Shown one piece after another: positions 15,004 through 37,502 of a stretch of DNA of 64,000 nt. Position numbers and translations under genes: made by a program. Each line of letters opens with the position of its first letter. Position 1 is the stretch's first letter. Source of the stretch: Haloprofundus salilacus (GTDB lineage: Archaea > Halobacteriota > Halobacteria > Halobacteriales > Haloferacaceae); assembly GCF_020150815.1 (NCBI RefSeq), contig NZ_CP083723.1, forward strand, positions 1,798,001 through 1,862,000, written 5' to 3'. The notes below the pieces were generated by a model, which worked only from the letters and a program-made list of their open reading frames with translations, ran no database searches and was not told where the DNA came from.

Positions 15004-15079
15004 GGTTCGAATCCCACATGCGTCGCTCTGCGGTCTCGCTTCGTTCGGCACGAAGAGCGGGCGTGGCGGGATTCGAACC
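15004..15079. repeat. Inverted T-arm repeat next to tRNA-Arg
   Basis: GGTTCGAATCCC at 15004-15015 is the exact inverse of GGGATTCGAACC at 15068-15079. The second arm is the T arm of the minus-strand tRNA-Arg, so an inverted copy of the T arm lies just beyond the tRNA 3' end. The DNA between them contains an imperfect hairpin (CGCTCT...AGAGCG) with TCGCTTCGTTCG in its loop region. The left arm itself can form a T-arm-like hairpin (GTGG/CCAC). Confidence 0.75.
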
Positions 15080-15130
15080 CACGATCTAGAGGTTAGGAAC
15101 CTCTCGCCCTATCCGCTAGGCCACACGCCC
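15058..15130 (-). tRNA. tRNA-Arg: tRNA-Arg (anticodon CCT)
   Basis: The minus strand folds as a 73-nt cloverleaf. Acceptor GGGCGTG pairs with CACGCCC, the D arm holds GGCCTAGCGGATAG-type sequence, the anticodon stem AGAGG/CCTCT encloses TTCCTAA with CCT at the anticodon position, and the T arm is GTGGGTTCGAATCCCGC. The discriminator is G. Confidence 0.95.
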
Positions 15131-35568: not shown

Positions 35569-35949
35569 CGCTCGTCTCTAGACGGTCAGGAGCTTCGTTA
35601 AGATTCCTGGCGCGGATGTGGTCGAGGACGAGGTTTCGGTGGTTCAACTACCGTCGTCTGTGGCCACGCGAACTGGCGGATCGTGAAGACTCGGAAGCCT
35701 CGAAGGGGAGAGAGGGATGCGCCGGCCGGAGTTCACCGAGCGAAACGAGTTGAACTTCGAGAGACGCAGTCTCGTCGGAATTTGGAATCCGGGTTGGAGA
35801 CAGAACCTACGTCTCGAGTTCTTCGATAACGCCGAGGACGGTAATCCGGTCGATAAACAGTTCCAGCTGCGGCCCGTTCCGAGGGTCCCTGCGACGGATC
35901 TCCCGGACGAGAAGGGACGTGCGGTATTGCTGCTCGAAGTTAAAGGAGG
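35569..35949. other. Intergenic stretch without supported gene
   Basis: About 380 nt. A plus-strand frame at 35717-35953 exists but has no recognisable composition, start context or homology-like pattern. GC falls towards its right side as the lower-GC patch begins. I see no RNA gene or repeat in it. Confidence 0.5.
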
Positions 35950-36129
35950 TTAAACACCAGTCGATTTCCCGTCGAGCGGGTCCTCCTTCGTGACGTTTAT
36001 CGCGTTTTTCAGCCTGACTAGCTCGACTTCGTGTCGATCGTCTGCGTGACGAACGAACTCCGCCTGCGCACTTTCGAAACCCTCGAAGAATTGGTCTTCT
36101 GAGCACGTTTCACAGAGAAGACGATACAT
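35950..36129 (-). CDS. Small Cys-pair protein downstream of HalOD1 gene
   Basis: A 59-residue protein beginning MYRLLCETCSEDQFFEGF and ending in a short acidic/basic tail. The CxxC pair and the short length match the many small zinc-finger-like proteins of haloarchaea, and FVRHADDRHEVEL supplies His residues that could complete a metal site. Its ATG lies one base after the TAA of the HalOD1 gene, so the two are translated from one message. Function unknown, plausibly regulatory. Confidence 0.7.
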   Translation of the reverse strand: MYRLLCETCSEDQFFEGFESAQAEFVRHADDRHEVELVRLKNAINVTKEDPLDGKSTGV

Positions 36130-36130
36130 C

Positions 36131-36394
36131 TTAGATCTCGACTTTTCGTTCCATAATGGAGATTTTGCCGTCTGTCTGCGCGACGATTTTTAATCCATTG
36201 TACTCGAATTCGATTATAGCAGGCTCCTCAACGCTCTCGGAAATCCGGTCAAGAGCGGTAGTATCGATCGCTTCGTAGAGTGGAGGTCCGATATCGTGTT
36301 TCTCCACATCTCTGAATTCAGCAATCGCTTTTACAATATTCACCGATAATGAACTTCCATCAATAAACTGATACTCCTGCTCTTCGCTGGCCAT
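36131..36394 (-). CDS. HalOD1 output-domain protein
   Basis: An 87-residue protein matching the haloarchaeal HalOD1 domain: SLSVNIVKAIAEFRDVEKHDIGPPLYEAIDTTALDRI, then a short beta hairpin EFEYNGLKIVAQTDGKISI. This domain is thought to be a signalling output module, found alone or behind receiver/PAS domains. ATG at 36394 chosen, since the frame's upstream residues are not conserved-looking. The gene is clearly poorer in GC than its neighbours outside 35.9-37.1 kb. Confidence 0.88.
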   Translation of the reverse strand: MASEEQEYQFIDGSSLSVNIVKAIAEFRDVEKHDIGPPLYEAIDTTALDRISESVEEPAIIEFEYNGLKIVAQTDGKISIMERKVEI

Positions 36395-36518
36395 TCTCAG
36401 AGGTGGAGACGCAGCGATATCCAAAAAGATTACCGCTTAGGTGAGGCGTATTATATCCGAGATGCAATTTTGTTTTTATTTCCCAAACTGAAACCCAGAT
36501 ACAAAATTGGATGCTTAA

Positions 36519-36992
36519 TTATTCCTTTGAGAGTTTGTCTTCCCCAAAGTGATTGAACGGACGAGTGTATTCGCCTCGTTGGAGTTGCTCTCGTTCGATA
36601 GTAAGCCCTAAATCGACCAAATCGGAGGCGACCTGGTTGATTTTCTCTGAGTCGTTCGTTACTGCGAGAACCCGGATGTTATCGTTCGCACTCAACATCT
36701 CCTGGACGTTTACCACATGCGATATCTGAAGCGCTTTCTGAGCGAGATCTTCTCGCTCTAGAACCGGTGCGGTACAGGTGAACTGGAGCCGAATCGGAAA
36801 TCCGGCTCGTTCGTAGTCGACGACCGGGATGTACTTATCGATGATACCCTGGTCCTCCAATTTCTGGATTCGATTCCGTATCGTCTGGTCGGACACAGGG
36901 AGCTCTTCCGCCATATCAACTGGAGTCTGCTTGCGTGCGTCCGTCTGAAGCAGATGGAGAATACCGAGATCAATCTCGTCGAGTCGATCCAT
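36519..36992 (-). CDS. Lrp/AsnC family transcriptional regulator
   Basis: A 157-residue regulator. The N-terminal winged helix-turn-helix spans MDRLDEIDLGILHLLQTDARK and SDQTIRNRIQKLEDQGII; the effector-binding RAM-like domain follows with SHVVNVQEMLSANDNIRVLAVTNDSEKINQVASDL. The frame extends upstream, but homology begins at MDRLDEID, so the ATG at 36992 is used. Target genes are unknown; the neighbouring HalOD1 unit is a candidate. Low GC, with A/T-rich codons unlike the flanking genes. Confidence 0.9.
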   Translation of the reverse strand: MDRLDEIDLGILHLLQTDARKQTPVDMAEELPVSDQTIRNRIQKLEDQGIIDKYIPVVDYERAGFPIRLQFTCTAPVLEREDLAQKALQISHVVNVQEMLSANDNIRVLAVTNDSEKINQVASDLVDLGLTIEREQLQRGEYTRPFNHFGEDKLSKE

Positions 36993-37274
36993 GCTTTCGA
37001 GACGCGTACCACGAGACGATGCAAAGGTTCTTCGGAATTCGAAACCTTCTAAATTATTTCGGACTCCTTCCAAACATTCAAAGTCGACCTGCGAATAGAT
37101 GAGTAATCCGCACATCGTACCGTGACTCACGGGTCGAGCGTTGGACGACGGGGACTTGAGTAACTCTAATTACTCCGGGGAGACGCTCGGAATAACGAAC
37201 AGCGCGGAAAATTCGTCGGTCAGGACAGAGCAGATTGAACGTCTGCGAGGGTCGGGCGGTTCGCGATCGAAGGG

Positions 37275-37357
37275 AGTGCGCCGACCGGGATTTGAACCGG
37301 AGCAAGACGGTCGCGCTCACTTCGTTCGCGCGCTACGACTTGCAGGATTCAAATCCC
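37275..37357. repeat. Partial copy of tRNA-Gly 3' end with inverted T-arm
   Basis: Positions 37275-37298 repeat the tRNA-Gly 3' end at 37430-37453 with one mismatch in 24 nt. Within the copy, GGGATTTGAA at 37287-37296 is matched by TTCAAATCCC at 37348-37357 as an inverted repeat, and the DNA between forms an imperfect palindrome (GCAAG...CTTGC) containing TCACTTCGTTCGCGCG. The layout parallels the one at tRNA-Arg (15004-15079) and looks like a recombination or attachment site. Confidence 0.75.
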
Positions 37358-37431
37358 TTTGAGACGCGTTCACTGCTTCAGAGCCTCGCGGCGAGATGAA
37401 ACTCGCCGCTCAGATAGTGGAATCGAAAAAG

Positions 37432-37502
37432 TGCGCCGGCCGGGATTTGAACCCGGGCCATGAGCTTGGAAGGCTCAGGTCCTGCCACTAGACCACCGGC
37501 GC
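37432..37502 (-). tRNA. tRNA-Gly: tRNA-Gly (anticodon TCC)
   Basis: A 71-nt minus-strand cloverleaf. Acceptor GCGCCGG pairs with CCGGCGC, the anticodon stem TGAGC/GCTCA encloses CTTCCAA with TCC as anticodon, and the T arm is CCGGGTTCAAATCCCGG. The discriminator is A. A partial copy of its 3' end lies about 155 nt towards the low-GC patch. Confidence 0.95.

Follow-up and report, generated by a model that had tools for sequence, protein, structure and literature searches.

Our analysis shows that the DNA behind tRNA-Gly(UCC) in the window (the whole stretch of 64,000 nucleotides analysed here, C1:1798001-1862000 of source genome G000, a 3.73 Mb haloarchaeal chromosome) belongs to an order-wide family of short, non-coding, structured cassettes linked to tRNA genes. 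The explanation we favour, with a probability of roughly 55%, is that such cassettes sit behind intact tRNAs and are exchanged by site-specific recombination at the T-loop. No account of such units was found in the open-access literature, the scope of a search outside which most subscription journals fall.

On the minus strand the tRNA (37502-37431) is followed by a hairpin (H1), a spacer and a second hairpin (H2), in which an inverted T-arm (37357-37348), an apex and a T-arm copy (37296-37287) succeed one another before a tail runs to 37277; the flank CTCCCTTCG follows directly after this acceptor-tail copy (Table 1). A first-pass annotation of the sequence had reported a copy of the tRNA 3' end 155 nt away, and recomputing the direct repeat returned the same coordinates and spacing as well as the same identity of 23/24 across AGTGCGCCG[A/G]CCGGGATTTGAACC; over the longer segments 37275-37303 and 37430-37458, 26 of 29 positions agree. 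The T-arm had also been described as mirrored by an inverted arm, and this was confirmed: the arms GGGATTTGAA lie at 37287-37296(+) and 37348-37357(-) and enclose a hairpin with CACTTCGTTCG at 37318-37328. Sites resembling GGGATTTGAA occur seven times in the window against 1.2 expected (0/100 shuffles), and CACTTCGTTCG by itself shows no enrichment across the window. Folding at the locus gave z = -2.5 for H2 (as DNA) and z = -3.5 for the whole trailer (as RNA). No integrase is encoded in the 155-bp unit, and all units examined are of non-coding length.

Table 1. Features of the unit at tRNA-Gly(UCC) and of the related arrangement at tRNA-Arg(CCU), in window positions.
Feature	Position	Strand	Basis
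Intact tRNA-Gly(UCC), anchor and target of the unit	37431..37502	-	ARAGORN; Rfam RF00005, 68.5 bits
Duplicated segment, tRNA nt 53-73 (G53 to discriminator base)	37432..37452	-	Identity profile of 79 tRNA/copy pairs
Inserted 155-bp unit: H1, spacer, H2 and copy of nt 53-73	37277..37431	-	Comparison of orthologous sites
Hairpin H1 (apical stem 37388-37409)	37371..37419	-	Folding; H1 block common to tRNA-Gly(GCC) units
Hairpin H2 (left arm, inverted T-arm; right arm, T-arm copy)	37287..37357	-	Folding; covariation in related H2s
Inverted T-arm, left foot of H2	37348..37357	-	Matches tRNA-specific T-stem above shuffles
H2 apex CGCG-C-GA-AC-GAA-GT-GA-G-CGCG, with tandem G.A mismatches and GNA triloop	37312..37332	-	Sequence; no variation at the G.A columns of the two aligned classes
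Second copy of tRNA nt 53-73, 20/21 identical	37277..37297	-	Sequence comparison
tRNA-Arg(CCU), anchor of truncated-looking unit	15057..15130	-	tRNA prediction
Truncated-looking tRNA-Arg unit with an H1-like hairpin and an inverted T-arm but lacking the tail copy	15005..15056	-	Searches for arms and tail copies

The edges of the duplication are sharp. Across 79 tRNA/copy pairs, identity climbs from 0.27 at the third base before the T-loop to 0.81 at nt 52 and 0.97 at G53, remains at or above 0.92 through nt 73 and drops to 0.59 at the following base. Since it increases at G52/G53 and declines beyond nt 73, the duplicated segment corresponds to tRNA nt 53-73. An att-like core is duplicated and the tRNA is left intact, as in a tRNA-integrated tyrosine-recombinase element.

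Indel variation at the orthologous site had been named beforehand as a test, and it is present. In G010, a genome of the same genus, the orthologous tRNA-Gly(UCC) leads directly into CTCCCTTCGGTCGCG with no unit in between; relative to this state the source genome carries 155 bp extra, which end in the tail copy and are followed by the same flank. At the orthologous Gly(UCC) of Haloprofundus marisrubri, 137 bp with a different H1 and H2 precede the same flank. The G010 flank contains a decayed older tail, Halogeometricum pallidum carries a third H2 class at tRNA-Gly(UCC), and in G036 and G070 the tRNA is followed by a different flank and no unit. At Gly(GCC) of G010, H1 is as in relatives and H2 is different. 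Modules are also common to different tRNAs of one genome (27 H1 or H2 pairs at E<1e-4), for example the H1 of Asp and Phe in G070 (93.5% over 62 nt) and the H2 of Lys and Ser in G036 (90.6% over 53 nt). Because empty, 155-bp and 137-bp states exist and modules recur behind different tRNAs, the units are dynamic and probably mobile cassettes; judged from these sequences, the states at the Gly site would fit gain or loss alike.

Within the source genome, near-copies of the last 24 nt (at most 4 mismatches) lie within 420 nt downstream of eight tRNAs, compared with one in the upstream flanks and none on the reverse strand. The same plan is found behind Gly(GCC), Glu(UUC), Ser(GGA), Ser(UGA, two units), Met, Asp, Tyr and Pro, and decayed versions stand behind several further tRNAs. 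The assertion that tRNA-Arg(CCU) has the same architecture held in part: an H1-like hairpin and an inverted T-arm are there, the tail copy is not, and its absence gives the arrangement the appearance of a truncated unit. A second tRNA-Gly-like gene, degenerate and with a predicted anticodon of two bases, was noted ~350 bp behind tRNA-Gly(GCC) (G000:C1:400592-400665), and G036 has a similar one behind its Gly(GCC).

The distribution of the family was surveyed with a strict pattern (inverted T-arm, AGTGAG, T-arm), with the reversed pattern as control. Matches were obtained in 66 of 148 genomes of the same family, representing 21 of 28 genera; across the order (Halobacteriales) 37 of 53 genomes had at least one, whereas among 242 genomes of the phylum beyond the order there were none, and the control gave no match in any genome listed. 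Nearly all matches examined stand behind an intact tRNA and end in the tail of that same tRNA; at least one match in the survey, that in G016, has the look of a probable chance occurrence. Most first units are 76-190 bp long, non-coding and free of gene remnants, and follow the two-hairpin plan. Units of this design stand behind 26 tRNA isoacceptors, and this order-wide recurrence strongly supports the earlier suggestion of a common mechanism at unrelated tRNAs. Among 194 tRNAs examined, one or more downstream copies were counted at 103, two or more at 30 and three or more at eight, fractions that outside the source genome are not a census because this enriched set was partly collected via unit matches. 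At two-copy loci the proximal copy is the closer match more often than the distal one (19 versus 7).

Covariation argues for a conserved fold. Gap-free H2 alignments were built for two size classes, 31 sequences of 58 nt and 22 sequences of 69 nt, the Gly unit being among the latter, and standard pairing reaches 97.7% and 98.1%, respectively. Double-changed cells number 24 and 41 against 8.2 and 10.4 in shuffles (0/500 shuffles reach the observed values), counts that do not represent independent events because the sequences are related; shifting the partner columns abolishes the compensatory signal. Every sequence has the tandem G.A mismatches of the apex (31/31 and 22/22), and in the 69-nt class a T.T and a C.A mismatch are retained as well. 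The inverted left arm matches the T-stem of the tRNA to which it belongs in 101 of 200 cases, compared with 69.7 +- 5.3 for T-stems of other tRNAs, these counts being partly dependent because units come from the same genus. Whole units fold with a median z of -2.8 versus -0.5 for flanks of equal length. In the strand test on the H2 alignments, G.T and A.C pairs occupy 16 and 13 inner cells, a near balance that favours neither strand, and folding is better for the sense strand in 39 of 53. Against Rfam no family matches the unit, the tRNA alone scoring above cut-off.

How do these units compare with known systems? Integrons have been described in archaea (PMC9668308), and integron cassettes resemble the units in several respects: they are short and strung in tandem, a hairpin site with inverted arms closes each of them, the edge falls at G^TT, and additions tend to adjoin the anchor; the units differ in carrying no gene and in having a tRNA T-loop as anchor. 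A folded hairpin site with complementary arms, as expected of attC, is borne out by the compensatory changes. The attC core boxes were not recovered in the units (mean 4.3-4.7 of 7 positions for RYYYAAC, R''; 5.0 of 7 for GTTRRRY, R'), and the three recombinases scanned with the integron-integrase model, out of six Phage_integrase matches, were far below its cut-off or unmatched. Elements of the SSV, pNOB8, SNJ2 and pT26-2 integrase families likewise target the 3' part of a tRNA and regenerate it (PMC8371274), whereas the units, at ~140 bp, lack integrase and genes and carry paired hairpins. The MITEs, PATEs and short mobile repeats (SMRs) of Haloquadratum walsbyi (PMC3119063) are also short, non-coding and mobile, PATEs having near-terminal palindromes and SMR-A measuring ~110 bp (PMC3119063). 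They are, however, not described as tRNA-specific; PATEs and SMRs make no target duplication and MITEs have terminal inverted repeats, whereas the units target tRNAs and duplicate 21 nt. The two ends of the unit differ, with an H1 start at one and a T-arm tail at the other, and nt 53-73 are duplicated in the 79 profiled pairs, contrary to the lack of target duplication that defines PATE/IS605 elements. The units lack features by which integron cassettes, integrase-bearing elements and PATEs are defined, match no Rfam family, and are placed here among short non-coding repeats linked to tRNA genes. The nearest known precedent is the E. coli tyrT distal repeats (rtT RNA), ~178-bp units arrayed in tandem behind a tRNA gene, each including the tRNA 3' end, and known from a single enterobacterial locus; we know of no inverted T-arm hairpin in them.

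Recombination at the T-loop ranks first among the mechanisms considered and is our best inference. Each cassette, placed directly behind an intact tRNA, comprises H1, H2 and a fresh copy of nt 53-73; the right arm of H2 repeats the T-loop of its own tRNA and the left arm is the reverse complement. Gain and loss would proceed by strand exchange at G53/T54 of the T-loop, with H2 serving as partner site or as a folded single-stranded site; new units would tend to enter next to the tRNA, whose function would be preserved by the regeneration of nt 53-73. The T-loop, 7 nt long between inverted stems, has the classical form of a tyrosine-recombinase core, and G53^T54 is where the cut would fall if this loop were the overlap region. 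Simple crossover would import the element's own tail, and modules are common to tRNAs with different tails; an extra step would therefore be needed, either an exchange of modules or a staggered cut that duplicates the target. Candidate enzymes are integrases of mobile elements or the single-copy haloarchaeal XerA-like tyrosine recombinase (G000:C1:1211548-1212597), which scores below the XerA equivalog cut-off. At E<1e-30 its gene was detected in each of the 53 genomes tested from the order and in no other genome tested, a co-distribution that is a lead only, as any order-core gene would show the same. XerA of Pyrococcus abyssi reportedly also binds, though with lower affinity, stem-loops from att sites that are unrelated (PMC8371274). 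A side observation concerns the N-terminal 100 residues of the XerA-like protein (L083 6549-7601), which match PDB 9i5v (E 1e-11), a ribosome-bound chain of 401 residues that was deposited as RaiA. A bolder version, which we regard as tentative and rather doubtful, would have the cassettes enter tRNA T-loops in the form of folded single-stranded DNA, the target's own T-loop supplying a hairpin arm and every tRNA acting as an attachment site, in a distinct, order-wide, integron-like class served by a resident recombinase.

The tail copy had been taken for an ordinary integrative-element footprint, and more generally the units could be attL/attR scars of tRNA-integrating viruses or plasmids after internal deletion. 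Archaeal integrases do prefer tRNA 3' ends (PMC8371274), nt 53-73 are plausible as an att core and integrases lie near unit arrays in the source genome. Yet the compact size, the uniform two-hairpin plan and the lack of gene remnants of most first units speak against such scars, and at the Gly locus the tail copies enclose 155 bp of non-coding hairpin DNA only, so that the footprint is unsupported there. Neither 2.9 million viral contigs nor 50,697 phage records contained a match to the unit, and a viral or phage origin was rejected. Three integrases, of the six Phage_integrase matches in the genome, sit between a tRNA (Leu UAG, Val UAC and, judging from a decayed 3' end adjoining the integrase, presumably Thr UGU) and an older unit array that carries the displaced 3' end of the corresponding tRNA; because of this position, islands enter the same tRNAs and do not appear to bring the units. 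Altogether we consider scars improbable. A plasmid reservoir was likewise rejected: two matches on the 0.83-Mb replicon of Natronorubrum bangense lie behind its own tRNA-Gly and tRNA-Val, one lies inside a tRNA-Cys-like gene in a Haloarcula plasmid tRNA array, and two comprise the apex hairpin only. The AT-rich patch at 35.9-37.1 kb, to which the tail copy had been tied, is a strain-variable insertion (window 35780-37218) with a HalOD1 gene and an AsnC/Lrp-type regulator; H. marisrubri lacks it, window positions 37219 and 35778 being directly joined there, and the idea that the unit is its scar was dropped, the patch being a separate indel not bounded by the tail copy.

The units might instead be cotranscribed with the tRNA and act as structured trailer, terminator or small RNA, much like the E. 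coli tyrT distal repeats. Compensatory changes, tandem G.A mismatches and GNA loops suit RNA and single-stranded DNA equally, the sense-strand preference in folding speaks for RNA, and hairpins can terminate transcription in Haloferax volcanii (PMC7237163). A functional RNA nevertheless seems unlikely: presence differs between close species and between tRNAs, so the unit is dispensable, and no Rfam family accommodates it. A terminator role through T-richness was discarded, T-richness just behind the tRNA being equal with and without units. A Cas1- or casposase-like staggered cut at nt 53 and 73, reminiscent of CRISPR adaptation, would produce the exact 21-bp target duplication regardless of the tRNA, and both the tendency to stack next to the tRNA and the travel of modules without a tail are consistent with it. 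It leaves the fit of the inverted arm to its own tRNA unexplained, however, and we judge it unlikely as well.

The units account for a large class of haloarchaeal tRNA 3'-end duplicates that are usually taken for virus or plasmid scars, and a tail copy behind a haloarchaeal tRNA is by itself not evidence of a genomic island. They provide many natural insertion sites with base-exact edges, and halophiles with genetics would be a tractable system for studying how structured DNA enters essential genes without breaking them. Apart from the units, the apex C-GA-AC-GNA-GT-GA-G was also seen with unrelated stems in intergenic DNA away from tRNAs (L011, L012 and L013, around 1501). In the Haloarcula halophila plasmid unnamed2 (L286 1131-1269), an H2-type hairpin lies within a tRNA-Cys-like gene at GGT|TC, with no proximal tail, in a dense tRNA array adjoining a TROVE-domain gene.
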